A DNA stretch of 36,929 nt. It comes from a virus. The stretch lies in the IMG/VR virus record IMGVR_UViG_3300042522_001307, positions 1 through 36,929 of that record; one strand, written 5' to 3'. Under the pieces are notes generated by a model that made no database searches, was not told the DNA's origin, and saw nothing but the letters and a program-made list of their open reading frames with translations. Both the position numbers and the translations under genes were made by a program. Below are positions 1,079 through 23,750 of the stretch, piece after piece. Position 1 is the stretch's first letter, and each line of letters starts with the position of its first letter.

Positions 1079-1378
1079 TTAGATTAGGAAAAGGTCGTCT
1101 TTGTCTATGGCAAAGACGCCTTTTTTCGTTTTAACTATTGCACTTTCACCGTTGACTTCTTTGATAATACCACCGTTTTTGAGAAAATATTTGGCGATAT
1201 CTAACACCGAATTTTCTCCCATCTTGAGGCAGTCAATTCGCTCTACCAAAGTTTTTAATTTCAACTTAGTGTTTACAAAAGCACCTTCTGACAAGGAATC
1301 TTGTTCTTCTTTGTCATCTATCCACTTCTTAAATTCCGCCATAAAGTTAGGCGAAAAGAATGATTTGTTTTTCTTCAT
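1079..1378 (-). CDS. Hypothetical protein, last gene of the minus-strand operon
   Basis: A 99-residue protein that I cannot assign. It starts with a basic Lys-rich stretch (MKKNKSFF), has an acidic stretch near residues 20-30 (DDKEEQDSLSEG), a helical middle part, and a C-terminal segment that looks like a small beta structure (GGIIKEV, SAIVKTKKGVFAI, DDLFLI), roughly like a KOW/SH3-type barrel. Its ATG overlaps the stop of the upstream gene in an ATGA arrangement (4 nt), which indicates translational coupling. The final codons coincide with the convergent terminator hairpin. There is no membrane segment and no signal peptide. Confidence 0.6.
   Translation of the reverse strand: MKKNKSFFSPNFMAEFKKWIDDKEEQDSLSEGAFVNTKLKLKTLVERIDCLKMGENSVLDIAKYFLKNGGIIKEVNGESAIVKTKKGVFAIDKDDLFLI
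1089..1126 (+). terminator. Rho-independent terminator between convergent operons
   Basis: CGTCTTTG (1096-1103) and CAAAGACG (1111-1118) form a perfect 8-bp stem with a 7-nt loop. The stem extends through AAAAGG/CCTTTT with one bulged T at 1095, and six T residues follow at 1121-1126. This is a good terminator for the plus-strand gene pair. Only 6 nt separate the two convergent stop codons, so the hairpin sits inside the last codons of the minus-strand gene. Read on the minus strand, the stem is followed by TTTTCC, so it could also end the long structural operon, more weakly. Confidence 0.8.
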
Positions 1379-2274
1379 AATAACTTTTCAAAAAATTCAT
1401 TTTCTGATATGTATTTAGAAAATTTGAAACTATTTTTCAAACCAGTATGCCAAATATTTGAATATTTATTTCCAAATTTATACCAAAATAGGTTGCCATC
1501 AACAATTTCATCAGCTGTTCTTTGCACTTCATACTGATGAATGCCATTTTCTATTTCTATAGTTCCGGGTCTATGCTCCTTGTATGCAACACTGCAAAAA
1601 CCAAGAAATATGTCGCCACCACCACACTGGTGCGCCAAATTAATGGCAGCACATATTGGATTCCTATAGTCATCAATGTGCGTAGAACTGTCTTTTGAAA
1701 TTAAACTTTCATAGTAATCATCTGCCACACTGTCATATAAATAAACTATGTTTTTATAGTTTCTTATAAAATTATGATATGACTTTCTGTTGCCTATCAG
1801 TTTGGGAAACCTTGAAATAGGAAGTGCTGTCAAACTAGCCTTGCTTGGATTGTTAAATACAAAATATTCTGGAAAAACAAATGATTGCCAAAATCTGGCT
1901 GCTTGATTCACTACAATTACACAAACATCGCTAGCAACTCTTTCCAACATCTTGTGATTTTCAAATCCAAGTCCATCTGATACAATAAGCCATTTTCTAA
2001 ATTTAGAAAAAAGACTAGTATCTAATATTCCCAATCTTAAGTTCGTATTTTTTATTTCATTGTCTATTAAATCTCTGACATCTACATCATGATAAAAATT
2101 ATTGACATCTTGAGGCTTAACACTTGCACTGACATAATTTCTAATCCAATAATTGCCTATTTTAAGATATTCATTTGTATTTTTATGTTTTTTAAATATT
2201 ACTTTGACTTCTTCATCGTTGTAAGCTTTCACTATCTGTTCGATTACTGAAACCTTTTCAATCGATCTATTCAT
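1375..2274 (-). CDS. MptE/DUF115-like Rossmann-fold protein (putative)
   Basis: About 299 residues from the ATG at 2274. A start at 2301 would add nine residues but overlap the upstream gene by 35 nt instead of 8, and GAGGGA lies upstream of 2274. The middle resembles the MptE-like (DUF115) fold seen in some sialyltransferase-like and flagellin-modification proteins: a strand plus glycine turn (WLIVSDGLGFE), a second strand (CVIVVNQAARFW), EYFVFNN at the place where the family has PD-x-x-x-x-xD, and NPICAAINLAHQCGGGDIFL followed by GFCSVAY, matching the family's helix and strand with a small-residue turn before the xLxY end. The usual GxGPSL and GxDL motifs are only partly kept, so activity is uncertain. 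It lies directly downstream of the giant appendage genes, which fits a sugar-transfer or modification role, but that is inference from fold and position. Confidence 0.5.
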   Translation of the reverse strand: MNRSIEKVSVIEQIVKAYNDEEVKVIFKKHKNTNEYLKIGNYWIRNYVSASVKPQDVNNFYHDVDVRDLIDNEIKNTNLRLGILDTSLFSKFRKWLIVSDGLGFENHKMLERVASDVCVIVVNQAARFWQSFVFPEYFVFNNPSKASLTALPISRFPKLIGNRKSYHNFIRNYKNIVYLYDSVADDYYESLISKDSSTHIDDYRNPICAAINLAHQCGGGDIFLGFCSVAYKEHRPGTIEIENGIHQYEVQRTADEIVDGNLFWYKFGNKYSNIWHTGLKNSFKFSKYISENEFFEKLL

Positions 2275-5200
2275 TTTTTGACTTTCCCTCAAGTAAATCA
2301 TCTAAGTCCACACGAATAATCGAGTCTGTTGGAACTATTTTTAATTTGTTATTTTCTTGTATAAGGTCATCTGCCATAGTTATAGGATCTTTTGCAACAC
2401 TCAAACTTTGTGTAGTTGGAGTTTTTTCAGATATACTTGTCAAAGTCTGTGAATTAGGTTTTTGGCTTTCAGCATTTATTGATTGAGCGACTGGAGCGTT
2501 TGCGCTTGACATTGTTTTTACAGATGTAATACCAGCTGGTACATATTGACTGCACTCTTGACAACAAATGACTTCTGGGTGCCCTTCAATAATGCCAGTA
2601 TGAGAGCATAGGCCAAACTTGTCACACTTTCTAATGGCACAGCTTCCACAACCTTGTTTAATCATTTTGAGCGGCTCTTTGCCAGCAAATTGACATAGTT
2701 TAACTTTGTCTTTTTTAATTGCAGATAATTTTGATATTAGGGTTTCTTGTGTCGTTAAAACATCACTAGTGCTCGGTGTTATGCTTGGCGGCGGAGTCGG
2801 AACAGGTGTATGTTCAACATATGGAGTTGGAGATGCTGACCATAAAAATTTACTTTCTTGTAGCAAATTTTGAGCATTAGGATTTGAATTGACTGCATCG
2901 TCTATATAAAAACTGTTCCAATCATCTAGGCCGTCTGGAACAAATGAAGTTGTTATGCCGGGCAAACAAGGATTGGAGTAAGTATCTCCGGCGTTTGCTG
3001 GAAAACATGCGACTGTGCCGGGGGGATTACACCCACATCCAGCAGCACAAGGTTTTGTCTGTGACCAAGTACCATCACCGTTGCAAGTCCATTGGCATTG
3101 TTTAGGCCAAGGATCGGTTGTTGAACACCTGTCAGCGGGAGGATTGTTTGCACATGGTACCGTTAAAGAATTTCCTTGAAAATTTGCTGGCAAATAACAG
3201 CCGCCGCATTCTGGCGAAGTGCATCTGTTGCTATTTGGGTAAGGCAAAACATAATAGCTTTTACCATTCCATGCAATATCACAACCTTGACAAACAGTAC
3301 AATCCCTTTCTATATACCAACCGTCTACCGTTGGATCACCAGTTGGAGCTGCCGGACAAGAGCAACCATTAGTGGGAGTGCATGTGTTGGTTCCAAAACC
3401 AACTGGTTGGTAGCTGCCATTTTGTACATTTCCTGTAACTATACATCCTGTACTAAAATATATTTGTGTAGGGGGTAATTTTGCAAATGAAGCGGCTAAA
3501 TCGCTGACCGTTGGACAACTACAGGTATCGGTGCCTGTGGCAACACACTGACCGCTTGTAAGTTCCCAATTACCAGTATTTGGATTTTTGTTATAGTAAC
3601 AAGAACCTAAACAGCCTTTGCCAACCCATTTGAATACACATTTACCACAACCCTCTGAAGGAACACATGAGCCGGGCAAAACTTGCCCTTGTGTATTATA
3701 ACTGCAAGGTGCTGTTGGTGGTTTACATGTACATGAATTTGGTGGACACCCTAGTCCACAAAAATTTGCATTTTGAGAACTTAATCTCCAAATATAGCCG
3801 GGCTGAAAATTGTCAACTACTGCAGTGCATACCCAAGAACATCCCAAGCCAGCTGAACAACTACAAGGAGGAGAAGTCGCCTTGGGAACACAAGGCACTT
3901 TCTTATATTGTAAAGGCCAGTAACCGTAACCAGAATAGCTTGCCGTGCTTGAACATTGACATGAACTAAGACAGTTGTTTCCAACATAGTTCCAAGTGCC
4001 TTCTAGAGCTTTTTGAGATGAATTATAGTAATAACAAGGGGTTGTGATTTGCTTTCCGTTAGATGGATTGCTAGGTAATATTCCACCAGATTTAGCATCT
4101 TCTACTGTAACACAGTTGCATGTAGAAGAGCCGCAGTTTGCGGCCAATGTCCATTGTGCCAAATCAGAATAATATGTATAAACGCAAGTTCCACTACCGC
4201 AGGTAGGAGCATTGAATTGAAAAGTGCAATCACCGCAACCAGATGTAGGACTTGGTGTGGGCGTTGGGTTAATACATTGATTGACTAAGAATGACTCGCC
4301 CGGTTGTTGGCCAGCAGGAGGTGGTGTAGGCGTAGGAGGACACTGACAGTTAGCATCTGGGTTGCAGAAGTCATAATTATACCATGCACCTCCATAACAA
4401 CTGAGATTGAATGTTTCACCATCATTTGGAGAATCAGGTAACAGACCCGCATCTTTAGCAGCCTGTGCTGACAAACAATTCATATTATCACAACCACAGA
4501 AACTCGCAGGGTCTAAGCGCCATCCAAAAGTACCTGTATATTCATAAATGCATGTTTGGTCAGTAGGGTCAGGATCGCATGGATTATTTAAATCTGTAAT
4601 ATATTCATCTATACAAGTTCCACATTCGGGTTCACAGCTTTTTGATATTATTTGAGACGTACTTGTTATAGCTTGTAGTGTAGGTGCAGGAGGGCACTCA
4701 CAGCCATAATTGCAATTGCCCAGCGAAGTTTCTCGATAGCACTTGGTATGCCTTGTTATGTTATTTTGAGAGCTTCTTGGCAATACACCTTTGGCTACTA
4801 ATATGGACGGATCTGGACAGATACATCCGCTGTCACTTTCACAATATGAATCATCAGGAGCATATGACCACACCCCTGTTCCGGGGGTATAAAAATATGT
4901 GCAAAAACCTCCGCTACATTGTGTTAAATTATTGTTTGTCCAAACAAATTTTTGACAATTGGTATTAATAGTTGCATTATTTAAGCCATCTGCTGGAAGT
5001 TTCCCATAAGAAACCATCCATCGTGCTTCCGGACAACCACAATTTTCACCTGCTGTGGTGCATGATTGACATTCTGCACACCTGTCCCAGCTACTAGTAT
5101 TAAAATTCCAATAGTAAGTGCAAACACCACTACCACAGTCTTCTATAGATGGCATGAAATTACATGAACCACAATTGGGAAGCGGAGTAGGGGCAGGAGT

Positions 5201-7375
5201 AGGTTTGGGGGTTTTGCTAGGCTTAGGAGTAACTGGTATAGGCCTGCCCGGATCAACAGGAATTACAATACCTCCTCCACCACCAGAACCACCCCCGCCG
5301 CCACCGCCTTCACCGGGCCATGGGTCGCCACCCGGGCCGAATGGAACACTCACCTGTGGTGTTGGGTTAGGTGTTGGCAAAGGTGTAGCAGTATTTTTTG
5401 GTGTAGCAGTAGGTGCGTTTGTGAGTCTTGGAGTTGGCGCTGGAGTTTTTGATGGTCTAGGTGTGGCACCACAAGGTGACGGAGTTGGAGTTGGGAAATC
5501 ACAAGGCCCTTCGCCATTGCTGTTTACTCTGACACACGCTGAACTTACATAAGCTAAATTTGTAAATGATGAATCGCTAGGTCCAACGCCAATGTATACA
5601 TTCCATGAACCTTTTACCAAAGGTTGATCGGTAAATGCAGATAAGTTATTGCCGTAACCGTTAAATCCAGAAGGTGCAGGCGCTGGTGAAGATAAAGTAA
5701 CTAAGCCGCCTGCACTTGCTGATGTTGTGTTATTGTTGGCATTAGGTGCATAGTTTCCAGTTTTCAAAGGAACACTAAAATCGTATATGTTATTTGCACC
5801 ACCATCTTCAAAAGTTAAAGTCACAGGTTGATTCATTATGAATTGGGGAGTAGATATGTTTCCTGCCGTATTACCGCCCATAATCAAACATGTGTTGCCG
5901 TTAGGATCTACCACCAATACTTTTACTAAATCATATCTGGAATAAGGAGTAGATGCTCCAAAAGTCTGTACAAAGAAATCATGAAGGACAACAGAAACCT
6001 TAGCAATTTTTTGATTTGCACCAGCACAAACGTTACATCCTTGATCTGTTATGCCTCCAGCTGTATTTGGCGCTCCTGATTGTATAGAACCGGTGCAATT
6101 TGTGCAGTAATCGCTAGTTAAAGAGATGGCTATATCTGCGTTGCTAATGCTTATGACACTAGGAATGTTGCTGTTTACCCGAATCACTGTGGGTGAGATA
6201 TTTATGATACTGGGAGCAATCAAGCTAATGCTCATATTTGATGGCGCAATAATGCTTATAATGCTTGGCAAATCGGAATTTATATCAATTATACTGGGCA
6301 AATCATCTATAACGGTAATAGTAGTTGGTATGTTGTCTATTATGTTAATTACAGATGGAATAACTACAGAACTTGTTATGACTATGTTGCTAGGAATTAC
6401 CGGAACATCTTCGAATGTAATTACACTGGGTATTCCATAGTCGCTGACAAAAGATATAGTAGAAGGAACTATAATTGGTCCAAATGGTCCTATGTCCAAA
6501 CATGGGAAAACTATGGGTGGGAAAATTATATTTTCTTGTACTGGATTCACTACGTCTAAGTCAAAACTTGGGAAATCTGGCAACACTGGCACTATGACTG
6601 GGAATGAAAAGCCAACCAAATTATTTTGTTGTAAATCATTTAAGTCCACTCTTTGTGCACTTGTTTGCAAAGTCTCACAAGAGGTAGCATTAACAGTTGC
6701 TACTGGGTCAATTCTTTTGTTTGGAGGATAAAAGTGTGTTCCAGTAGTGGCTTGAGTTTCAGTGGAACCATCGCCGAAATCTATGACAAATCCACTATAC
6801 TGGTCAGTTCCAATAATATTTAAGACATAAGATATTTCTGTTCCCTGTATGGGGCTTTCGCTGGTTACAGTATAATAGAACTCCATCTGAGGACATCCCG
6901 CATCATCGGTGTATGCAGGCAAATTATTGATGTAGGATAATTTCCAATAAATAGATTGCTTATCGGTTGTGTCATTTGTGCCTATAAAAGTTTCTGTATT
7001 AACCAAGGCTCTTGCTAAGTTATTATGATGTTCTGCAATGACGTAGCCTCTTACTGAGGTACCTGCATTATAATTTACCGCTGGCGTTCCATTGGTTCTT
7101 CTTATGCAATTATTGAAGCTTACAACGGCTCCTGCAGTAGGACCACTCAGTCTAGTGACTGAAGAATAATAAATTAATTCGCCTTCGATAGTAACATAGC
7201 CGCTATCGGCCCATATTTGAAATTTACCAGCTTCTGTTGGCACTACATTTATTGTTGTTTCCCAAGAATTCAAAGTCGCAGACAAAACTGTTTCAGAGGT
7301 ATCGAATACCTTGAATAATGTTGTGTCAGTATCCAAATTACTAGGATAGGACGATATAGGTAATATTGTGCCCAA
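2267..7375 (-). CDS. Giant cysteine-rich tail appendage protein, copy B
   Basis: A 1702-residue modular protein. Order: N-terminal docking module (about 1-135, ending in AEHHNNLARALVNTETFIG); PKD-like domain (about 170-240, VIDFGDGSTE); decapeptide repeats of type IPSxIxIxxD (about 300-418); jelly-roll resembling the proprotein-convertase P domain (about 457-618); Pro/Thr-rich linker with a poly-Gly tract (about 620-745); cysteine-rich modules (about 734-1475, near 80 Cys); second Pro/Thr linker; C-terminal eight-Cys cluster (about 1555-1612) and a conserved tail (VPTDSII). Translation starts at TTG, since no ATG lies nearby and the reading frame matches the paralogue from that codon. The domains suggest a surface-exposed, host-binding virion component. 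No signal peptide or enzyme motif is seen. It is a tandem paralogue of the upstream gene, 9 nt away. The role is inferred from architecture and position. Confidence 0.8.
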   Translation of the reverse strand: MGTILPISSYPSNLDTDTTLFKVFDTSETVLSATLNSWETTINVVPTEAGKFQIWADSGYVTIEGELIYYSSVTRLSGPTAGAVVSFNNCIRRTNGTPAVNYNAGTSVRGYVIAEHHNNLARALVNTETFIGTNDTTDKQSIYWKLSYINNLPAYTDDAGCPQMEFYYTVTSESPIQGTEISYVLNIIGTDQYSGFVIDFGDGSTETQATTGTHFYPPNKRIDPVATVNATSCETLQTSAQRVDLNDLQQNNLVGFSFPVIVPVLPDFPSFDLDVVNPVQENIIFPPIVFPCLDIGPFGPIIVPSTISFVSDYGIPSVITFEDVPVIPSNIVITSSVVIPSVINIIDNIPTTITVIDDLPSIIDINSDLPSIISIIAPSNMSISLIAPSIINISPTVIRVNSNIPSVISISNADIAISLTSDYCTNCTGSIQSGAPNTAGGITDQGCNVCAGANQKIAKVSVVLHDFFVQTFGASTPYSRYDLVKVLVVDPNGNTCLIMGGNTAGNISTPQFIMNQPVTLTFEDGGANNIYDFSVPLKTGNYAPNANNNTTSASAGGLVTLSSPAPAPSGFNGYGNNLSAFTDQPLVKGSWNVYIGVGPSDSSFTNLAYVSSACVRVNSNGEGPCDFPTPTPSPCGATPRPSKTPAPTPRLTNAPTATPKNTATPLPTPNPTPQVSVPFGPGGDPWPGEGGGGGGGSGGGGGIVIPVDPGRPIPVTPKPSKTPKPTPAPTPLPNCGSCNFMPSIEDCGSGVCTYYWNFNTSSWDRCAECQSCTTAGENCGCPEARWMVSYGKLPADGLNNATINTNCQKFVWTNNNLTQCSGGFCTYFYTPGTGVWSYAPDDSYCESDSGCICPDPSILVAKGVLPRSSQNNITRHTKCYRETSLGNCNYGCECPPAPTLQAITSTSQIISKSCEPECGTCIDEYITDLNNPCDPDPTDQTCIYEYTGTFGWRLDPASFCGCDNMNCLSAQAAKDAGLLPDSPNDGETFNLSCYGGAWYNYDFCNPDANCQCPPTPTPPPAGQQPGESFLVNQCINPTPTPSPTSGCGDCTFQFNAPTCGSGTCVYTYYSDLAQWTLAANCGSSTCNCVTVEDAKSGGILPSNPSNGKQITTPCYYYNSSQKALEGTWNYVGNNCLSSCQCSSTASYSGYGYWPLQYKKVPCVPKATSPPCSCSAGLGCSWVCTAVVDNFQPGYIWRLSSQNANFCGLGCPPNSCTCKPPTAPCSYNTQGQVLPGSCVPSEGCGKCVFKWVGKGCLGSCYYNKNPNTGNWELTSGQCVATGTDTCSCPTVSDLAASFAKLPPTQIYFSTGCIVTGNVQNGSYQPVGFGTNTCTPTNGCSCPAAPTGDPTVDGWYIERDCTVCQGCDIAWNGKSYYVLPYPNSNRCTSPECGGCYLPANFQGNSLTVPCANNPPADRCSTTDPWPKQCQWTCNGDGTWSQTKPCAAGCGCNPPGTVACFPANAGDTYSNPCLPGITTSFVPDGLDDWNSFYIDDAVNSNPNAQNLLQESKFLWSASPTPYVEHTPVPTPPPSITPSTSDVLTTQETLISKLSAIKKDKVKLCQFAGKEPLKMIKQGCGSCAIRKCDKFGLCSHTGIIEGHPEVICCQECSQYVPAGITSVKTMSSANAPVAQSINAESQKPNSQTLTSISEKTPTTQSLSVAKDPITMADDLIQENNKLKIVPTDSIIRVDLDDLLEGKSKNE
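3920..5470. repeat. Long direct repeat, downstream copy (partner 9080-10633)
   Basis: The two giant paralogous genes are nearly collinear here with an offset of 5160 bases. Example: the 60 bases from 4381 are identical to the 60 bases from 9541, and those from 5162 match those from 10322. Identity is highest over the first cysteine modules and the Pro/Thr linker. It drops sharply below about 3900 (downstream cysteine modules) and in parts of the N-terminal half. Short indels in the Gly/Pro linker shift the offset to 5163 near 5460. Confidence 0.85.
5271..5309. repeat. Poly-glycine coding tract (CCN repeats on plus strand)
   Basis: A near-uninterrupted run of CCT/CCA/CCC/CCG triplets on the plus strand encodes GGGGGG-S-GGGGG in the minus-strand appendage gene. 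It lies between two Pro/Thr-rich linkers, so it is probably a flexible hinge. The paralogue has the same tract at 10431-10463 with a different length, consistent with slippage. Confidence 0.8.
6130..6465. repeat. Array coding for IPSxIxIxxD decapeptide repeats (copy B)
   Basis: The minus strand encodes successive units IPSVITFEDV, IPSVINIIDN, IPTTITVIDD, LPSIIDINSD and LPSIISIIAP, with less regular units on either side. The central units have a strict 30-base period. The pattern [IL]-P-[ST]-x-I-x-I-x-x-[DN] suggests a stacked beta structure or stalk. I do not recognise a named family. Confidence 0.75.
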
Positions 7376-7384
7376 AGTTACTTT

Positions 7385-10300
7385 CTACCTTTCATTGGCT
7401 TCCTTTTTGCCATCTATTAGTTCATCTACGCTTATATGTATTACAGAATCAGCCGGTACAACTTTTATCTTATTATTGGCGCTAATTTCATTTTCTGCCA
7501 TAGTCATAGCATCTTGTATTGGTTGAACTTCACGCATCACTGGCGAATCCGCAGATATTTTGCCCACTTGAGAATTTTGTGTGTTTAAGTCAGAAACAAC
7601 ACTAGAAGATAATGGATTGTTTTTATTGTTAGGCAAATTAATGTTGCCCGTTTTATTTGGACTATAACTAGTGCAATTCTGACAGCAAATTACCTCAGGA
7701 TGTCCTTCGATTATGCTAGTATGAGAACATAGTCCAAACTTTTCACATTTACGTATAGCACAAGTTCCACAACCTTGTTTTACCATGCGTGCAGGTTCTT
7801 TATCTGCATACTGACACAATTTAACACGTTCCTTGGATATAGGAGCAAGTGTTGTTTTCAGATTTTCACTTGTTGTCAAAATATCTGAATAAATAGGCGT
7901 AATACTAGGAGGAGGTGTTGGTGCCGGTGTGTGTTCGACATAAGGAGTAGCCGTTGGAGTAATATTTGCTATTAAACTTACAGGCTCTGCATTATGGACA
8001 TATATAGGTTCGACAAATGTCAGATTTATTGGGTTAGCCACAGGGCCGCAAGTACCCAAGGCTTTCAATCCATTCGTTGTTCCGTCATAAAAAGGCGGAA
8101 CACATCCGCACGACAAAGCCTGAGGACTAAACGTTTCTTCTGATTCATAGGAGGAAAAATCCATGTCATTGTCAGTGTTGTAAAGCATTAAAGAAGAACC
8201 ATACTTTATGCATGCTTGACTGGAACCACTATCGTATATCCACGTTTTGGCGGCGGCATCCCAAGTAAAGTAGCAATTTCCTATACAACCATTGTTTGGA
8301 AGGGAGCAGCTGCTATTAACAACTAAGCCAACGTTCGCTGAAGTGCAAGTATAACCAGCTGAAAGAGGGTAGCAAGCACATTCACCTCCTGTTAAACACA
8401 AACCTGTAGGAACCCATGTGTAAGATCCTCCAGATTGTGTGCATGTAAATGCACATCCGCCACTGCATGCTTCATAACCACATGGAAGTGAAATCGTGTC
8501 AGTTGAGTAGGTTGTAGGTGGAGATTTGCATCCCGAAGGGAGGCATGGAAACCCGCAATTCCCAACAACGACAACATATTGTGTGCCATTCCATTTATAA
8601 AGACATGCGGCGCATCCGTTTTGGCAACTAACATATCTTTTATAGCCATAATCAGCTAGACTTCCGTCATAAACTTGCGGGCAACTACAATTCGGACCAC
8701 AATAATTATCAAATAAAACCCAAGAGCCAGCAGTTGGATCGGGATTAACACACCCAGTATAAAAATCTAATGTACCCGGTGCCAGCTGACCAATTGTCGT
8801 CTGAAGTTGCGCTACAGATGGACATGTGCAGCCGCCCGTACATTGGCCTGTTACAAACTGCCACTGATTGGTTAGCGTGTCAAACTGATAGTAACAATTC
8901 TTAGAAACAGAGCCTGTAGAGCAACCTGTGCCAGCCCAATAGTAGATGCAGCTAGAAGCAGAACATGCTGTAGTGACGGCTGGTGTTGGCAAAGGACTAG
9001 GTTGTGGACCACTAGCACTAGGAGTGGGTGTGGGAGATGGCTTGGGTTCGCAATTTTCAATCTTTATTTGTCCGGGGAAATATCCAAAACCAGAATAGCT
9101 TGCAGTATTCAAGCACGTGCAATCGCTGGTACAAGTGTTCCCTGTATAGTCCCAAGTACCCTCAAGCTTTTGTTGATTTGAATTGTAAAAATAACAAGAA
9201 GTATTTACTTGTTCGCCATCACCGGGATTCTCAGGCAATAATCCCATAAATATAGCATCTTCAACATTCATACAGTTACATGTAGAAGACCCACAGTTTG
9301 GACCTACTGTCCATTGTTCCAAATCAGAATAATATGTATAAACGCAAGTTCCACTGCCACATACTGGAGCATCAAATTCAAATATACAGTCTCCACAACC
9401 TACTGTAGGACTTGGTGTGGGTGTTGGGTTAATACACTGATTAACTAAAAATGAATTGCCCGGTTGCTGACCAGCAGGAGGTGGTGTAGGCGTCGGAGGA
9501 CACTTGCAGTTAGCTTCAGGGTTACAGAAGTCGTAATTATACCATGCACCTCCATAACAACTGAGATTGAATGTTTCACCATCATTTGGAGAATCAGGTA
9601 ACAGACTCGCATCTTTAGCAGCTTGTACTGACAAGCAATTCATATTATCACAACCACAGAAACTTGCAGGGTCTAAACGCCATCCAAAAGTACCTGTATA
9701 TTCATAAATACATGTCTGATCAGTAGGGTCAGGATCGCATGGATTATTTAAATCTGTAATGTATTCATCAATGCAAGTTCCACATTCGGGTTCACAGCTT
9801 TTTGATATTATTTGCGATGTACTTGTTATTGTTTGAACAGTAGGCGGATCTGGACATTCACATCCTTGGTTACATTTACTAATTGCTGTTTCTTGGTAGC
9901 ACTTAGTATGTCTTGTTATATTATTTTGAGAACTTTTTGGCAATACACCTTTGGCTACTAATATCGATGGGTCTGGGCAACTACATCCGCTACCACTTTC
10001 ACAATACGAATCATCAGGAGCATACTCCCATTGTCCTAACCCGGGAGTATAAAAATATGTGCAAAACCCTCCGCTACATTGTGTTAAATTATTGTTTGTC
10101 CAAACAAATTTTTGACAATTAGTATTGACAGTTGCATTATTTGAGCCATCTGCAGGTAGTTTTCCATAAGAAACCATCCATCGTGCTTCTGGACAACCAC
10201 AATTTTCACCTGCTGTGGTGCATGATTGACATTCAGCACATCTACTCCAACTTTTACTGGTAAAGTTCCAATAGTAAGTGCAAACTCCGCTACCACAATC

Positions 10301-12529
10301 TTCTATAGATGGCGTAAAATCACATGAACCACAATTGGGAAGCGGAGTAGGGGCAGGAGTAGGTTTGGGGGTTTTGCTAGGCTTTGGAGTAACTGGTATG
10401 GGTCTGCCCGGATCAACAGGAATTATAGTACCTCCGCCTCCGCCTCCACCGCCCCCTCCTCCAGTTCCCGGCCATGGTTGACCACCCGGGCCAAAGCCGC
10501 TGGGTGCTGGTGTAGGAATGGGCGTTTTATTGGGCGTTGGTAAAGGCGTTCCGGTATTTTTTGGTGTGGCAGTCGGCGCATTTGTGCGCCTTGGGGTCGG
10601 TGCTGGAGTTTTTGAAGGTTTAGGTGTGGCACCACAAGGTGACGGAGTTGGAGTTGGGAAATCACATGGGGCTTCTCCATTGCTATTCACTCTGGCACAA
10701 GCGGAACCGACGTAACATAAATTTGTATATGTGGCGTCGTTAGGCCCAACACCTATGTAAACGTTCCAAGCACCTTTGACCAAAGGCTGGTCAGTAAAGA
10801 CAGCAAGGTTGCTGCCATATCCATTAAAACCCGACGGCGCAGGAGCGGGAGCGGATAAATTGACTAGTGTTCCAGCATTTCTTGAGCCTGTGTTACCATT
10901 AGCATTTGGATAATATGTGCCAGTTTTTAAAGGAACGCTGAAATCATATATGTCATTCGTAGAGGAATCATCAAAAGTCAAAGTAACCGGTTCTGTCATG
11001 ATAAACTGGGGAGTGCTTGTATTCCCCGCAATATTACCGCCCATAAGCAAACATGTGTTGCCGCTGGGATCTACCACCAATACTTTTACTAAATCATATC
11101 TTGTAGAAGGGTCTTGAGCATTAAAAGTTTGCACTAAGAAATCATGTAATACAACTGTAACTTTAGTGATTTTTTGATTAGCTCCAGCACAGACATTACA
11201 TCCCACATCAGTAGGTCCACCTGCTGTGTTGGGCGCACTAGCCTGAATGCTTCCAGTACAATTTGTGCAGTAGTCGCTTGTCAAAGAAACTGATATGTCG
11301 ATATCATTTACAGAAATTACACTGGGGATGTTACTTTGCACCTGAATCACTGTTGGTGCTAAATTTATAACGCTTGGTGCAATTAAACTTATTGATATGT
11401 TAGAAGGAGAAATTATACTTATTACACTTGGTAAATTGGAATTTACATCAATTATACTGGGTAAATCATCTATAACGGTAATAGTAGTTGGTATATTGTC
11501 TATTATGCTAATTACAGATGGAATTTCAAAGTCACTTGTAATTTTTATGATGCTAGGAAATACAGGAATATCTTGGAATGTAATTACGCTAGGAATCACA
11601 TTTGGATTTATAAGTGATATGGTAGAAGGAATTGATATTGGCCCAAATGGCCCTATGTCTAAGCAAGGAAATACTATGGGTGGGAATTGAATTGCATCTG
11701 GAACATCATTTACAGTTGCCAAGCTAAAATTGGGGAAATCTGGAATGGCTGGAACCACGATTGGGAAAGTGTCGAGTCCCACAATATTCACCTGTTGCAA
11801 ATCATCCAAAGATACTTTTTGTGCAGAAGTTTGAAGCGCATCGCAGGCTGGCGAATTAACGGTGACAACTGGTTCAACTTTTTTATTAGGCGGGTAGAAA
11901 TGTGTTCCGCTCAGAGATTCATTTTCCGTAGTGCCGTCGCCAAAATCAATAGTAAAACCAGTGTATGGCACTGTGCTGTTTATAGCTAAATTGTATGATA
12001 TTTCAGTGCCTTGAATTGGGTCTTCAGTTACGATGGTATAATAGAATTCAAGTTGTGGACATCCAGCATCGTCAGTATAAGGCAATAAACTGTTTATGTA
12101 GTTGAGCTTCCAAAGAATGCTATTTTTATCTGTTGTATTAGTAATTCCTATAAATTCTTCGATGTTGACCAATGCTCTTGCTAAATTGTTATGATGTTCA
12201 GCAATTACAAATCCTCTTACGGACGTGCCGACTGGATTATTTTTTGATGGGACACCATTGACACGTCTTATGCATGATTTGAACTGTGTAACAGCAGCTG
12301 ACACTCTTGTGACTGCTGCGTAGTATATTAACTCTCCTTCAATAGTCACATAGCCTGTATCAGCCCATAATTCTGGCTTACCTGCTGGAACAGGTATTAT
12401 GTTTATAGTTGTTTCCCATGCCAACAAAGTTTGGGACAAAACGGTTTCCGAAGTATTGTATACCTGAAACAGAGTCGTATTGGTGTCAAGCGCACTCGGA
12501 TAAGACGATATTGGTAGAACCGTTCCCAA
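7385..12529 (-). CDS. Giant cysteine-rich tail appendage protein, copy A
   Basis: A 1714-residue paralogue of the downstream gene with the same order: docking module (1-132, EHHNNLARALVNIEEFIG), PKD-like domain (about 165-235, TIDFGDGTTE), IPSxIxI repeats (about 300-413), P-domain-like jelly-roll (about 455-613, with RYDLVKVLVVDPSGNTCLLM and KGAWNVYIGV), Pro/Thr and poly-Gly linker, cysteine modules (about 733-1495), Pro/Thr linker and eight-Cys C-terminal cluster. The first cysteine modules are almost identical to copy B. The later ones differ: here a second Pro/Thr/Ser linker (PSPTPTPSASG) interrupts the array. The start codon is TTG at 12529 with GGGG four bases upstream. Probably an extracellular, host-contacting virion protein. 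The cysteines could be disulfide-bonded once outside the cell or could bind metal. Confidence 0.8.
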   Translation of the reverse strand: MGTVLPISSYPSALDTNTTLFQVYNTSETVLSQTLLAWETTINIIPVPAGKPELWADTGYVTIEGELIYYAAVTRVSAAVTQFKSCIRRVNGVPSKNNPVGTSVRGFVIAEHHNNLARALVNIEEFIGITNTTDKNSILWKLNYINSLLPYTDDAGCPQLEFYYTIVTEDPIQGTEISYNLAINSTVPYTGFTIDFGDGTTENESLSGTHFYPPNKKVEPVVTVNSPACDALQTSAQKVSLDDLQQVNIVGLDTFPIVVPAIPDFPNFSLATVNDVPDAIQFPPIVFPCLDIGPFGPISIPSTISLINPNVIPSVITFQDIPVFPSIIKITSDFEIPSVISIIDNIPTTITVIDDLPSIIDVNSNLPSVISIISPSNISISLIAPSVINLAPTVIQVQSNIPSVISVNDIDISVSLTSDYCTNCTGSIQASAPNTAGGPTDVGCNVCAGANQKITKVTVVLHDFLVQTFNAQDPSTRYDLVKVLVVDPSGNTCLLMGGNIAGNTSTPQFIMTEPVTLTFDDSSTNDIYDFSVPLKTGTYYPNANGNTGSRNAGTLVNLSAPAPAPSGFNGYGSNLAVFTDQPLVKGAWNVYIGVGPNDATYTNLCYVGSACARVNSNGEAPCDFPTPTPSPCGATPKPSKTPAPTPRRTNAPTATPKNTGTPLPTPNKTPIPTPAPSGFGPGGQPWPGTGGGGGGGGGGGTIIPVDPGRPIPVTPKPSKTPKPTPAPTPLPNCGSCDFTPSIEDCGSGVCTYYWNFTSKSWSRCAECQSCTTAGENCGCPEARWMVSYGKLPADGSNNATVNTNCQKFVWTNNNLTQCSGGFCTYFYTPGLGQWEYAPDDSYCESGSGCSCPDPSILVAKGVLPKSSQNNITRHTKCYQETAISKCNQGCECPDPPTVQTITSTSQIISKSCEPECGTCIDEYITDLNNPCDPDPTDQTCIYEYTGTFGWRLDPASFCGCDNMNCLSVQAAKDASLLPDSPNDGETFNLSCYGGAWYNYDFCNPEANCKCPPTPTPPPAGQQPGNSFLVNQCINPTPTPSPTVGCGDCIFEFDAPVCGSGTCVYTYYSDLEQWTVGPNCGSSTCNCMNVEDAIFMGLLPENPGDGEQVNTSCYFYNSNQQKLEGTWDYTGNTCTSDCTCLNTASYSGFGYFPGQIKIENCEPKPSPTPTPSASGPQPSPLPTPAVTTACSASSCIYYWAGTGCSTGSVSKNCYYQFDTLTNQWQFVTGQCTGGCTCPSVAQLQTTIGQLAPGTLDFYTGCVNPDPTAGSWVLFDNYCGPNCSCPQVYDGSLADYGYKRYVSCQNGCAACLYKWNGTQYVVVVGNCGFPCLPSGCKSPPTTYSTDTISLPCGYEACSGGCAFTCTQSGGSYTWVPTGLCLTGGECACYPLSAGYTCTSANVGLVVNSSCSLPNNGCIGNCYFTWDAAAKTWIYDSGSSQACIKYGSSLMLYNTDNDMDFSSYESEETFSPQALSCGCVPPFYDGTTNGLKALGTCGPVANPINLTFVEPIYVHNAEPVSLIANITPTATPYVEHTPAPTPPPSITPIYSDILTTSENLKTTLAPISKERVKLCQYADKEPARMVKQGCGTCAIRKCEKFGLCSHTSIIEGHPEVICCQNCTSYSPNKTGNINLPNNKNNPLSSSVVSDLNTQNSQVGKISADSPVMREVQPIQDAMTMAENEISANNKIKVVPADSVIHISVDELIDGKKEANER
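9080..10633. repeat. Long direct repeat, upstream copy (partner 3920-5470)
   Basis: Partner of the repeat in the downstream paralogue, with an offset of 5160 bases. Most substitutions I compared are silent third-position changes, although several blocks of 50-60 bases are identical. This points to duplication followed by purifying selection, or to gene conversion between the copies. Confidence 0.85.
10431..10463. repeat. Poly-glycine coding tract (CCN repeats on plus strand)
   Basis: CCT/CCG/CCA/CCC triplets encode eleven glycines in the upstream giant appendage gene. Unlike the copy at 5271-5309, there is no serine interruption. It separates two Pro/Thr-rich linkers. Confidence 0.8.
11290..11630. 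repeat. Array coding for IPSxIxIxxD decapeptide repeats (copy A)
   Basis: Same array as at 6130-6465, encoding units such as IPSVISIIDN, IPTTITVIDD, LPSIIDVNSN and LPSVISIISP. The central 30-base units line up with those of copy B, while the outer units have diverged more. Confidence 0.75.
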
Positions 12530-12541
12530 ATTACCCCACTA

Positions 12542-14827
12542 TTAGTATGACCCAAATAACCATTGCGTGCCACTGGGCCTGCTTGACAATTTGGAAAACG
12601 ACAAATCGACATCATTGAACTTGATAAAAGCATTATTACTGTAATCGAAGCTCAAAAAGGCATTGCTTGCAAAATCGGTTGTTGCCACCAAAGCATTGTT
12701 TTCATTGTCATAGTCAGGAACAGTTTTATCTTGAAGATTGGAAAAGGTTATGGAATTATAACCGGGGCCGCCGGTCTTCCAAATGTTGACGGAAGGGTCA
12801 AACGCCAGAACAGATCCACTATTATTAAAAAAGAATAACCCTGTTGTTAGGTTTACTAATTGGCCTTGTGTCTTTACAGGTCCCGGCATATCTGGTAATT
12901 TTTTAAAACTATCAAGAAGATAAGACGTGCTCTCAACTGTTGCATAAAATGACTTTATCATAAAGTCATTTCCTACTGTGGTATTTTTTAAAATATAACC
13001 GCTTCTGCCTCTGAATGCAGTTCTGTATGCACTATAAGCGCCATATATGTTTTGTCCAAATGGGTCGTATTGGGCCGCATTATATTCCAACAAATCCGCC
13101 TGTGCAGTAAAGCTCGCATTCGTGTATGCATATGTCTGCCTGCTGCCATCAATTAAGCTTTGAATATCTACATTTAGGTTAGTTGGGCTGGTGCTGGGTG
13201 GCTGTGTTGCAGCGTTTCCTAGAATGTAATAGATTACGCTAGTGCCATTGAAAGGAATCCAGTTCCAAGGTCTGTTGAATTGGAAGCCGACTGGAGTATC
13301 GTAAGTCTCTTGGAAGCCATTGTAATTCACGCAATTCACAGTTTCCAAGGTGGAAGACTGGGATGCTGTTCTGCCACTTGCCCATGACAAAATGCTAAAT
13401 CCTTGAAGGCCTGATGGAGTGGTGCTTCTCGCATTTAAATTATTGTTGGTATTGAATTCATTTTTGGCTCTTGCCTGTTGAAGAGGATCTGCTATGTAAT
13501 CTAAGAAAGATGAATCTTTAGTAATTACTGTGCTGACAACTTGTTTAGTTTTGAAAGTTTCATTTAAGAATCCGAGTTCAGAAGCATAAACTGATGTTGC
13601 GTATGCACCAGTTCCAAATGTAAACAACCAAGCATTTTGTCTTTCAATCGCATTTATATATTTGTAATTCTGTGTGATTCTATAAGCTTCAGAATCTGTA
13701 TCACACCTTAAAACAACTTGATAATCTCCACCTATTGTATAAAGTGCTTTTGTAACTGGCGTAGTGGTGGCATGGGAAAGAGTATCGGATAAATCCCAAG
13801 TATAAGAGACTATGGGATCTATTTCAGTATAAATTCCGGGGGGAGATTCTATTAGCCATGCTCCATTGTCTGCTCTTAAAGGGTCAGAACCCACAATGAC
13901 CAAATCTGTTGTATATACATCAACATAAGCACCGGTTGGTGCTTTGATATAAGGTGGAATTCTGGTAGGGAAGTTTTTCAAACCCGGCTTTGAAGGGTCA
14001 AACTCTGCATTTCCGGGCCATCCAACAACAATTTCTGCTTCTGCTGGAGCCACATAAAGCGCATCTATCATTCCAACAAATGTAACGGTATCTTGACCAA
14101 ATTTATTTTGCACAGTCATGGAAACAGTGTATATGCCCGGTGAAAGATATGTGTGAGTTATAACAGGGTTGGTTGTCGTCTGGGTTGCTGGCGGAATGAC
14201 ATTTGAATCGCCAAAATCCCAAGTATAAGTTATTGTATTGTTAGGCAGTTCTTCACCCAAATATAAACAGTAACTAGTAAAAGTCACTTCCATGCCGAAA
14301 CCCGGAGTGATTTTCCCCAAAAGAGGCGTTGCAACAAACCAAGCTCTAGGAGTAAAAACTGTTTTAAGTAAAAAATTTGTTCTGCCGTTGATAGTTCCTT
14401 CAAAAGGCAAGATACCTACATCACTTGTAACGCCCAAATATTCTTCTATATTTAAAGTAGCATTTTTGATTGAGTTGTGATGCTGAGCAGTGACGTTCAT
14501 GGAAACATTCGTTGCACCAGCTTTTTTCTCAGTCTTATCAGGAGTTTCGTCCAAGACAGTCAAGTCTGAGAAAGTAAAATTTATATTATCTTTTGCGCCA
14601 TAATAAAATGATGTCGCACGATATTCAGTGGGACTACAGTTTTCTGTAAGTGTTATGATGCCAGTAACTGGAAATTGCGCCATGATAACAGCATCTTGGG
14701 CAACATAAATTATTGTATCGCCCGGAGAATAATCCTTTGCCAGAGGCAAAGTCAAGGCATCGGCAACACTGTAAAGATTAGTGGATGTGTCTAATGTTAC
14801 TGGAAATGTAATTTCAGGAATTGCCAT
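12542..14827 (-). CDS. Tail appendage protein with docking module and PKD-like domains
   Basis: A 761-residue protein. Residues 1-130 are a diverged copy of the docking module shared with the neighbouring genes (TLDTSTNLY near the start, TAQHHNSIKNATLNIEEYLG at the end). Two PKD-like domains follow: about 165-258 (YTWDFGDSN, HTYLSPGIYTVSM) and about 285-380 (YTWDLSD, with the DG lost). From about 390 on I recognise no family. The C-terminal 100 residues contain short strands (LFFFNN, VLAFDPSVNIWKT, NAFLSFDY, NAFIKF) that look kelch- or propeller-like but are too few for a propeller. The start ATG shares one base with the upstream stop (TAATG) and has a strong GGAGGT at 14834-14839. It ends in two stops (TAA TAG) just before the TTG start of the next gene. 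Likely a virion surface protein. Confidence 0.75.
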   Translation of the reverse strand: MAIPEITFPVTLDTSTNLYSVADALTLPLAKDYSPGDTIIYVAQDAVIMAQFPVTGIITLTENCSPTEYRATSFYYGAKDNINFTFSDLTVLDETPDKTEKKAGATNVSMNVTAQHHNSIKNATLNIEEYLGVTSDVGILPFEGTINGRTNFLLKTVFTPRAWFVATPLLGKITPGFGMEVTFTSYCLYLGEELPNNTITYTWDFGDSNVIPPATQTTTNPVITHTYLSPGIYTVSMTVQNKFGQDTVTFVGMIDALYVAPAEAEIVVGWPGNAEFDPSKPGLKNFPTRIPPYIKAPTGAYVDVYTTDLVIVGSDPLRADNGAWLIESPPGIYTEIDPIVSYTWDLSDTLSHATTTPVTKALYTIGGDYQVVLRCDTDSEAYRITQNYKYINAIERQNAWLFTFGTGAYATSVYASELGFLNETFKTKQVVSTVITKDSSFLDYIADPLQQARAKNEFNTNNNLNARSTTPSGLQGFSILSWASGRTASQSSTLETVNCVNYNGFQETYDTPVGFQFNRPWNWIPFNGTSVIYYILGNAATQPPSTSPTNLNVDIQSLIDGSRQTYAYTNASFTAQADLLEYNAAQYDPFGQNIYGAYSAYRTAFRGRSGYILKNTTVGNDFMIKSFYATVESTSYLLDSFKKLPDMPGPVKTQGQLVNLTTGLFFFNNSGSVLAFDPSVNIWKTGGPGYNSITFSNLQDKTVPDYDNENNALVATTDFASNAFLSFDYSNNAFIKFNDVDLSFSKLSSRPSGTQWLFGSY

Positions 14828-15849
14828 TAAGTTACCTCCACTGTTTCAGAAAAAATGGCTCTTGTGACTATATTTCCTTCAATTGTAATTAACACGGAAG
14901 GTCTGTAGGTACCGGGATTTTGATATTGATGTGTCACAACCATTACATTGGGATCTTCACTGAAGATACTTTGCCCATCACCAAATTGCCACAACCTGTT
15001 GACAATTGGACCTTGTGTTTGGTCATAAAATGTAAATGTTGTAGGTGTTCCTGCAGAACTTGTTGCAGTAGCAATACTTGTACCAGTAACAGGAATCACA
15101 TATCCAAAGGGTGTAGTGAAATTATCACTGACGCTTATGTAACTTAATTTTGTGGCTACACCTTGTCCACCTTGATCAGATATAATTCGCAACTGGACAG
15201 TATAATTTCCAGCTTTCAAATAGGTATGAGATGGATTTTTTTCATAACTAGCAGAGCCATCTCCAAAATCCCAGAAAAATCTGTTTATCAACCTGTTTGT
15301 GAAACAATGGAAATTTACTGTTAAGGGAGGAATGCCGGATAAAGGAAAAGCTCTGTAAATTGGCACTGGTGCCAAATATCTATTTTCAAGGTTTTTCAAT
15401 AACCCGGTAACTGTTGTAGTATCAGTATTACTTTCTACACCAACAAACCCTTCTATGTTTAGGACGGTATCCTTCAGGGAATTGTGGTGGTCAGCAAAGA
15501 CACCGCCCTCAACTGCCGTATTAACGGGCCAAGAATTAATCTTGGTGCCCATGAAACCACGATTCAGGTTGTAGAATGTGTTTCTAGTCTTATTTGCGTA
15601 ATATACAAATTCGACAGAGGTTCCTTTTTTGCTGGGCAAACTGAGACGAAAAATTCCTTGTGCGGGAAAATTATCGGTTGTATCGACTATGATTACATCG
15701 GCAGTTATCGATGTAGCACCTTTAGTAACTGTTACGCTGTTGTTATAAACCTCGTATAAGTTATTGAAGCTATCAAGGGCTGCCGGGTATAAAGATAAGT
15801 CTCCGTCTTGATAACCGGCGATATTACTGCTAAGTTTTACTAGGGCCAT
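14827..15849 (-). CDS. Short tail appendage protein: docking module plus two PKD domains
   Basis: A 340-residue protein and the smallest member of the four-gene appendage family. Residues about 15-145 are the docking module (YPAALDSFNNLYEVYNN at the start, ADHHNSLKDTVLNIEGFVG at the end). Two PKD domains follow: about 168-250 (FFWDFGDGSASYEKNPSHTY, AGNYTVQL) and about 255-340 (RLWQFGDGQS, HQYQNPGTYRPSV). PKD domains are Ig-like folds common in surface and carbohydrate-binding proteins. With no further domain it could be a connector or decoration protein on which the larger relatives are built. There is no clear ribosome-binding site. The ATG is 3 nt after the stop of the coiled-coil gene, so coupling is likely. 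Confidence 0.75.
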   Translation of the reverse strand: MALVKLSSNIAGYQDGDLSLYPAALDSFNNLYEVYNNSVTVTKGATSITADVIIVDTTDNFPAQGIFRLSLPSKKGTSVEFVYYANKTRNTFYNLNRGFMGTKINSWPVNTAVEGGVFADHHNSLKDTVLNIEGFVGVESNTDTTTVTGLLKNLENRYLAPVPIYRAFPLSGIPPLTVNFHCFTNRLINRFFWDFGDGSASYEKNPSHTYLKAGNYTVQLRIISDQGGQGVATKLSYISVSDNFTTPFGYVIPVTGTSIATATSSAGTPTTFTFYDQTQGPIVNRLWQFGDGQSIFSEDPNVMVVTHQYQNPGTYRPSVLITIEGNIVTRAIFSETVEVT

Positions 15850-21775: not shown

Positions 21776-23332
21776 TTATTCATAATGGAATCTCAAAGTA
21801 ATCTGGTCTGGTCGAATAATTTCATAGAAATTGACAATAACTTCATTTGGATTTCTATTAGTATCGTTATCTATTGTAAACTGTATGTCATACCTGTATG
21901 GTTGCGGAATGGCGCTGAGAGCCTTTAAAATATCAATGTTTCTCAACGCTTGGCCGTATTCCCAATTTTGCAAGTTGAAAAATATTGCCAAATCCCTATA
22001 AATCGATGCGCCAATTTCCTCCTCAAAAGGTATAAATTGAGGTGTCAGGAAGACATCTATGTTTAGACTGACTAAAACTATAGTTCCATTCTGTACAGTG
22101 ATGGAATCTGTCATCATTTTTTTTGTTTCTAGGTATTCATATAGCTCCAACTTGAACTGAGAAGTGGGCAGTTGCAACCCATCTGTGCCGCTTTTTACTA
22201 GAACATATATTACAATAAGATTGGCAGAGCATCCGCTGTGTCTCAGTGCGGCAATTCCTTTGCCTGTTTGTCCGTTATAAGGACTGACAAATAGGTCAAC
22301 CAAATTCTTGTAATCACTTCCTGTTACTGCTCTATTTTGTACATTTGCGTATGCTGGTAATTTTCTTCGGATATCTTCAACTGTATCACCATCATATCCA
22401 AATTGCCCTCTTGTATAGTTGGAAAGATTGACTGGTACACTGTATCCTAAAACTTCTAATGGAATAAGTATATCTTGGCTGACAAAGTTGCTAACTATAT
22501 TGCCTACAGTGCCGCCGCCAACTCTGTATACAATGGTAATATTGCTTCCTAAAGATGGAGATATTCCTGCCCTGTTATTTCCAAAACTAACGTACACTTG
22601 ATAATTGCTGTTGTATTCTATCATATACTCGGCCAAAGGCTGACTAGCAGTGAAAAAAGCAACCTGTCGCCATTTTTGACCATCAACATAGACTCGAACA
22701 CTATCCAAAAGAACTGGAGCAAATTCAAGAGTTAATACCTGATTTATTTGACCAGTTCCCACAAAGTTTTGCGTAAACGTTTGGCCTTCCAAACCAACTA
22801 TGTTGCTATTACTCAAGCTACCGGCTTGAATAATAATTGGTTGGTCAAAAATAGGTCTCATATATTGATCGGCAGGAAACAATTCGATTACCAAAGGGAC
22901 TTCGTTGCTGACCAGATTTACATCAAGTGGTGTAGGAATTTCCAAATTTATTTGCTGGGGAGTGCTTATTCTTGCTGTCCATTGACTCTTGGCAGCAATC
23001 GGTGGAGTTGGCTGAAATCCTACCAATTTAGCTAAGCGAAAAGCGCTGTCTAATTCTGTTACCGTGTTGATGAATAGCTCATTAGCTACTTGGTCAATTT
23101 TAAAAGAAAGCGTGTCGCCAACAAATGCCCAGTTTTCTATAAGCATTATTGCCAAACTAGATTCGATAAAGTCTGTAAACTCTGTGCCAAAATTGTCTCT
23201 GCAATAAGTAATTAGCCTATTTTTCAAACTCCAAAAATCTTGGTTTGTGTAATTTAAGCTTACAGGAGTTGGACGATTAGGATTTGTTGTGATTTTATAA
23301 GGAACAACTTCAAAAGGACACAATTCAGCCAT
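21776..23332 (-). CDS. Baseplate wedge protein, gpJ/gp6 family
   Basis: A 518-residue protein with the layout of baseplate J/T4 gp6-like wedge proteins: an N-terminal helical part (SLKNRLITYCRDNF, FIESSLAIMLIENWAFVGDTLSFKIDQVANELFINTV, ELDSAFRLAKLVGFQP), a central beta region, RRKLPAYANVQNRAVTGSDYKNLV (the family's typical R-x-x-x-P-x-x-x-R-A-V-T-x-x-D-Y segment, about residues 320-345) and a C-terminal part with ALSAIPQPYRYDIQF. It builds the inner wedge ring of the contractile baseplate together with gp25 and gp53. Length lies between P2 gpJ (about 300) and T4 gp6 (660). It starts 1 nt after the gp25-like stop, with AGGAG upstream. Confidence 0.9.
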   Translation of the reverse strand: MAELCPFEVVPYKITTNPNRPTPVSLNYTNQDFWSLKNRLITYCRDNFGTEFTDFIESSLAIMLIENWAFVGDTLSFKIDQVANELFINTVTELDSAFRLAKLVGFQPTPPIAAKSQWTARISTPQQINLEIPTPLDVNLVSNEVPLVIELFPADQYMRPIFDQPIIIQAGSLSNSNIVGLEGQTFTQNFVGTGQINQVLTLEFAPVLLDSVRVYVDGQKWRQVAFFTASQPLAEYMIEYNSNYQVYVSFGNNRAGISPSLGSNITIVYRVGGGTVGNIVSNFVSQDILIPLEVLGYSVPVNLSNYTRGQFGYDGDTVEDIRRKLPAYANVQNRAVTGSDYKNLVDLFVSPYNGQTGKGIAALRHSGCSANLIVIYVLVKSGTDGLQLPTSQFKLELYEYLETKKMMTDSITVQNGTIVLVSLNIDVFLTPQFIPFEEEIGASIYRDLAIFFNLQNWEYGQALRNIDILKALSAIPQPYRYDIQFTIDNDTNRNPNEVIVNFYEIIRPDQITLRFHYE

Positions 23333-23333
23333 T

Positions 23334-23750
23334 TCATACTCCTGTAGGTATCTGTATCACTAGATTTTCAACAGCATTTATTTTGTTGGGAACAAAAAAT
23401 CTTATTGCTATATAAATTGTATTGCTATTTAGATTTGCAGCTATGGCTATATCTTGGTTTGTAGAGCCATAAGAATCTGTGACTGTTACTTCTTGAACTA
23501 CTATCCTAGGTTCCCAGATCGCTATTGCGCTGTTTATTGCAGCTTTTACTCTGTCGTAAATAAGAGGATCATTGGGTTCAAAAATCAAATTTCTTAAAGA
23601 GGTGCCGTATTCCGGCATCATGACTCTTTCACCCGGATTTGTAAGGATTAGCTGTAGCAAATCCGCTTTTATGACATTTGTGTCATAAATTGTAGGCAAT
23701 AAACCCTGAGGGGTATTAACTATAGGATACGGACAACCAAGCAAATTCAT
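23334..23750 (-). CDS. Baseplate wedge protein, gp25/gpW family
   Basis: A 138-residue protein with a clear GPW/gp25 pattern: ADLLQLILTNPGERVMMPEYGTSLRNLIFEPND (about residues 29-61), where GER-x-M-x-P-x-x-G and LIFEP are the family's core, then a helix (YDRVKAAINSAIAIWEPRI) and two strands, including IYIAIRFFV. T4 gp25 is 132 residues, so this is full length. It connects the wedge to the inner baseplate and is thought to start sheath assembly. ATG with AGGAG upstream. The 73-nt gap before it is the largest non-coding gap in the operon. Confidence 0.92.
   Translation of the reverse strand: MNLLGCPYPIVNTPQGLLPTIYDTNVIKADLLQLILTNPGERVMMPEYGTSLRNLIFEPNDPLIYDRVKAAINSAIAIWEPRIVVQEVTVTDSYGSTNQDIAIAANLNSNTIYIAIRFFVPNKINAVENLVIQIPTGV

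Follow-up and report, generated by a model that had tools for sequence, protein, structure and literature searches.

The window analysed here was the whole 36,929-nt stretch of IMG/VR record IMGVR_UViG_3300042522_001307 (positions 1-36,929), from an uncultured bacterial virus that is probably very large. Two tandem genes on its minus strand, P0002 (transcribed first, copy 1) and P0001 (copy 2), encode cysteine-rich proteins of about 1700 residues, as a preliminary description of this DNA had stated; the coordinates of all features are collected in Table 1. A purine-rich stretch precedes the TTG start codon of both genes, both proteins begin MGTxLPISSYP, and the intergenic gaps around the pair measure 9-12 bp. 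Genes of a contractile-tail baseplate operon lie upstream: they code for gp25, a gp6/J-like wedge protein, an OB spike of the gpV type and, by a weak match, a gpI-like protein, and a 2673-aa tape-measure-like open reading frame accompanies them. The baseplate setting claimed for the pair was thus confirmed, and the gene order is kept in related phages: P0004, P0003, the fibre gene and P0005 follow one another in all loci long enough to show it. The N-terminal docking end of P0001 and P0002 is common to P0003 and P0004, which are encoded immediately upstream.

The module order that had been described was seen in both proteins: a docking module, a PKD-like domain, an IPSxIxI repeat, a P-domain-like domain, a linker rich in Pro, Thr and Gly, cysteine modules, a second linker and an eight-Cys cluster. 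An AlphaFold2 (AF2) model of the N-terminal part was built on a 56-sequence alignment. Structure prediction, which had been proposed as a check, gave confident models for the docking module and the PKD-like domain (bar the first ~25 residues) and poor ones for the shaft, the P-domain and the cysteine modules. The PKD-like domain (predicted local distance difference test ~90) was superposed with VIA-align on PKD1 of PrtV (Z 9.6, root mean square deviation (rmsd) 2.0 over 73 positions); neither P0001 nor P0002 gave a significant Pfam PKD match (PKD_4 at E 0.09 in the window copy). With the same method, the docking module was found to resemble chains of virion and tail structures: 8jov_1 from the portal-tail complex of phage GP4 (Z 9.6, rmsd 3.6 over 100 positions), 8rk3_b from the baseplate of phage JBD30 (Z 9.3) and 9in6_M from the capsid of phage VP1 (Z 9.0). 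Identity to these chains is 14-17%; the fold alone is shared, and the virion positions differ.

The IPSxIxI motif is present 8 times, whereas 2000 shuffles never gave more than 2 copies; its family-wide spacing mode is 11 residues, and the repeat probably forms a beta-repeat shaft. For the domain that follows, PF01483 (the proprotein-convertase P-domain) was matched by 6 of 11 homologues at E <= 1 (best E 4e-5), and the full protein from locus L010 scored 17.4 bits against a curated cut-off of 21. Searched directly against the window, PF01483 matched neither copy, and the P-domain profile gave insignificant matches only (E 0.7-4.4) in the PDB. The window pair carries no protease domain.

Cysteine makes up 5.9% of P0001 and 5.7% of P0002, and near 10% over residues 725-1515, versus 0.8% in the neighbouring proteins, from whose composition 13 cysteines would be expected in place of the 100 and 97 counted (p ~1e-50). 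A cysteine-module profile built from the window found six modules per protein (the fifth of P0001 marginal, E 0.03); the same profile found three modules in L009 and one in L007, and two-aromatic, CxC-type units are also present in L006, L008, L010 and L080. Relatives of the eight-Cys cluster were not found in phage records or viral contigs, the cluster being seen in the window pair only. Against Pfam, neither the cysteine module nor the eight-Cys cluster gave a meaningful match (Albumin_I, Pepsin-I3 and Kelch_6, at E 0.04-0.5, were rejected as weak), and the AF2 model of the cysteine module was too poor for fold comparison: a resemblance to tick RaCI2 (Z 3.0) was discarded as not meaningful. 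The aligned cysteine modules showed no segment of sufficient conservation for a scan of sequence collections. Of the 30 cysteines aligned within the divergent region (residues 1166-1515), 23 are retained, compared with 62 of the 242 remaining residues (p 7e-8); the cysteines are therefore structural, and would cross-link by disulfides or metal.

P0001 and P0002 matched no family in Pfam or PHROGs at E <= 0.1, known tail-fibre families included, and the only PDB sequence matches were hits of the Gly linker to single-chain antibody (scFv) constructs, rejected as low complexity. The claim that this combination belongs to no described family thus held in the libraries searched (Pfam, PHROGs and PDB sequences). 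P0001 alone matched nothing when used as an IMG/VR query; a docking-end alignment (A3) was needed, and retrieved 73 IMG/VR loci on contigs of up to 459 kb, to which searches with P0003 and with the P-domain added further loci. Among 50,697 phage records, a homologue was found only in LR756511.1, an uncultured huge phage of 595 kb. This orthologue (674 aa) has the same place in the gene order, a docking and PKD-like end and IPxxIxI repeats; unlike the window genes it is single-copy and has neither P-domain nor cysteine modules, its 31 cysteines lying mainly in PSFDCISFC repeats. In the papers searched, which did not take in subscription papers, nothing joined cysteine-rich, tail fiber and jumbo phage, or P-domain and phage tail. 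RCC1-like proteins have been reported in jumbo phage phAPEC6, without a fibre role (PMC7247149), and 'PKD' in PMC11823257 stands for pyocin knob, another domain, so that this match was set aside as not relevant. The fibre family is therefore undescribed in these libraries and papers.

The family is usually represented by a single-copy gene, and its 47 distinct complete proteins measure 483-3048 aa (median 776). The first ~245 residues are conserved family-wide; beyond them the sequences vary much more, and the modules can replace one another, among them long IPxxIxI shafts, repeats of PSFDCISFC, P-domain plus cysteine modules, GYFxGG repeats and, in L006, RCC1 propellers (E 5e-157). In 59 of 60 comparisons the distal part was less conserved than the N-terminal end (mean identity 37% against 56%; the pairs are not independent), and the neighbour P0003 stood at 52%. 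The P-domain/Cys form is one clade (support 100/96 in a 64-row tree), and the eight-Cys cluster stayed confined to the window pair. These sequence comparisons make P0001 and P0002 an elaborate version of a family that is widespread among huge phages.

Some further features of the family were recorded. In L061, L066, L073 and L005 (LR756511.1), PPSFDCISFC units are expanded in register with the IPSxIxI repeat, giving up to 110 cysteines; these fibres form a clade apart from that of the window and represent a second route to cysteine richness. At L006:9971-19117 and L088:2539-11379 the fibre genes specify proteins of 3048 and 2946 aa, respectively, in which GYFxGG repeats occur; both genes stand in tandem pairs. 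A contig or locus end truncates 22 of the 78 family genes, in many cases soon after the docking end (e.g. L011, L013, L014, L017, L031), as if assembly broke at the variable or repeated part. L085 (RXKI01000071.1), the only hit among genome contigs, sits in a Neisseriaceae metagenome-assembled genome; it is probably a phage contig, possibly mis-binned, and was not taken as evidence for a Neisseriaceae host.

Over the first ~1160 residues P0001 and P0002 share 77% identity; the figure is 31% at ~1166-1515 and 53% over the last 184. Synonymous divergence (dS) between them is ~2.3 over the docking end, falls to 0.25 at cysteine module 3 and then rises again; at four-fold sites, 115 of 202 differ in residues 1-632 versus 28 of 117 in residues 735-1046 (p = 8e-9). 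The ratio of nonsynonymous to synonymous divergence (dN/dS) is ~0.1 where the proteins are conserved. The saturated dS of the docking end led to the rejection of a recent redundant duplication and, together with this low dN/dS, indicates that both copies are old and maintained. The low synonymous divergence over the central cysteine modules points to gene conversion, indicating that these modules were homogenised in a tract whose centre is module 3 plus the sequence just after it. The distal region of ~350 residues, on the alignment of the two copies, is replaced or strongly diverged.

In the 64-row tree the window copies are each other's nearest relatives (100/100). Tandem copies are also present in L006 and L088, where copy 2 of L006 groups with copy 2 of L088 (99/98), so the duplication in these two predates their split, and the window pair represents either a separate duplication or a homogenised one. 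Tandem copies exist in at least three phages of the P-domain/Cys clade and stem from at least two duplications, unless homogenisation has occurred. The preliminary description had left a choice between hetero-oligomers and two recognition variants, and on sequence either may hold. Since both copies are old and maintained, with diverged distal parts, two functioning fibres are favoured over a recent redundant duplicate.

P0001 and P0002 are likely to be tail fibres, or receptor-binding adhesins, on the baseplate of a huge myovirus-like phage. This reading rests on the baseplate operon, the docking end shared with baseplate-adjacent proteins, the repeat shaft and the variable, modular far end. 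Like the fibres of contractile-tailed phages (T4 long-tail-fibre type), the proteins are encoded beside baseplate genes and combine a conserved attachment end with a variable modular distal end; they differ in having ~6% cysteine, a P-domain and repeated cysteine modules, and in matching no PHROG or Pfam tail-fibre family. Display on the virion and contact with the host, suggested earlier as probable, are supported by the conserved docking end and the hypervariable distal end; location on the virion, orientation, receptor contact and an oligomeric shaft are what we infer from this arrangement.

The following mechanism is proposed. The first ~245 residues (docking module and PKD) would anchor the fibre at the baseplate beside P0003 and P0004, the IPSxIxI repeat would form the beta-repeat shaft, and the P-domain, the flexible Pro/Thr/Gly linkers and the cysteine modules would make up an extended distal arm touching the host. 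The old paralogues would persist as two distinct functional fibres: gene conversion would keep their central cysteine modules similar, the distal ~350 residues would go on diversifying, and the phage would thereby carry two contact surfaces, related yet different. A more specific version can be put forward only tentatively: P0001 and P0002 may be two parallel adhesins, cross-linked by disulfides or metal, whose contact regions are diversified and then re-homogenised by conversion between the tandem copies. Such adhesins would parallel, in a phage, the variation seen among paralogous adhesins, with cysteine-module repeats that match no known family as their building blocks.

Several points weigh against the tail-fibre reading. 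Because the cytoplasm in which phage fibres assemble is reducing, disulfides at such density could arise only at a late stage, unless the cysteines are metal sites. The family is known from the sequences of uncultured phages; the AF2 models of shaft, P-domain and cysteine modules are poor, which leaves the geometry of shaft and arm conjectural; and the docking fold, being found in several kinds of virion protein, by itself shows no function.

Three other explanations were weighed. P0001 and P0002 might co-assemble, as a hetero-oligomer or as proximal and distal half-fibres, both being needed for one fibre; their adjacency in one operon, the purifying selection on both, the homogenised middle and the tandem pairs of L006 and L088 would fit this. 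A single copy suffices in most family members, however, and each copy has complete docking and distal ends, which half-fibre pairs split between genes, so that co-assembly is judged unlikely. A slightly lower probability is given to a role as virion decorations with a general affinity for extracellular matrix, mucus or particles instead of a specific host receptor. PKD, P-domain-like and RCC1-type modules are indeed generic interaction modules, and the Pro/Thr linkers are very long and flexible, but the baseplate operon, the docking end shared with baseplate-adjacent proteins and the fast turnover of the distal part are better explained by contact with the host.

It is very improbable that the proteins are not virion parts at all and instead leave the infected cell by secretion or sit on its surface. 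PF01483 P-domains occur mostly in secreted proteins, and the modules are of extracellular type with Cys-rich repeats; no signal peptide was recognisable by eye in either protein, however, and the genes stand in an operon with baseplate genes and encode a docking module of virion-protein fold.

Among the neighbouring genes, P0005 and its orthologues immediately follow the fibre gene wherever a locus extends that far. PF01973 takes in MAF-type flagellin-modifying proteins, and P0005 may for this reason modify the fibre or aid its assembly. P0007 (16491-17030, minus strand) is a small conserved gene of the operon in which a likeness to GT2-type glycosyltransferases was seen by eye; it has no Pfam or PHROG match.

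Table 1. Features of the fibre gene pair and its neighbours in the 36,929-nt window (residue numbers refer to the copy named).
Feature	Coordinates	Strand	Details
P0005, MptE-like family	1375..2301	minus	PF01973 matched by 9 of 14 homologues but not by P0005
P0001, fibre gene copy 2	2267..7375	minus	1702 aa, TTG start, 100 Cys
Eight-Cys cluster, copy 2	2531..2707	minus	C1561-Y1611, behind second Pro/Thr linker
Divergent Cys-rich region, copy 2	2831..3880	minus	residues 1166-1515
Cys modules 1-4, copy 2	4034..5173	minus	residues 735-1114
Pro/Thr and poly-Gly linker, copy 2	5204..5479	minus	residues 633-724
P-domain-like domain, copy 2	5480..6100	minus	residues 426-632
IPSxIxI repeat, copy 2	6101..6475	minus	residues 301-425, spacing mostly 10-12
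PKD-like domain, copy 2	6641..6913	minus	residues 155-245; AF2 and VIA match to PrtV PKD1
Docking module, copy 2	6926..7375	minus	residues 1-150; conserved family-wide; AF2 confident from ~residue 30
P0002, fibre gene copy 1	7385..12529	minus	1714 aa, TTG start, 97 Cys; first transcribed
Eight-Cys cluster, copy 1	7664..7816	minus	C1572-Y1622
Cys modules 1-4, copy 1	9194..10333	minus	residues 733-1112
P-domain-like domain, copy 1	10640..11263	minus	
IPSxIxI repeat, copy 1	11264..11641	minus	
PKD-like domain, copy 1	11807..12079	minus	homology to copy 2
Docking module, copy 1	12080..12529	minus	
P0003, PKD protein	12542..14827	minus	761 aa; docking end as in pair; directly before fibre genes
P0004, two-PKD protein	14827..15849	minus	340 aa; docking end as in pair
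Baseplate wedge proteins P0011 (gp6/J-like) and P0012 (gp25)	21776..23750	minus	

The pair would work like a tail fibre, yet it belongs to no tail-fibre sequence family compared (PHROGs, Pfam). A cysteine density of ~10% in a phage fibre raises the question of how such modules fold in a reducing cytoplasm. A widespread huge-phage fibre family is defined in which the docking end stays fixed and the distal modules can be exchanged, so that the host-contact parts of not-yet-cultured phages become recognisable from sequence. The tandem pair, with its conversion tract, suggests a way of keeping and varying two adhesins at once.

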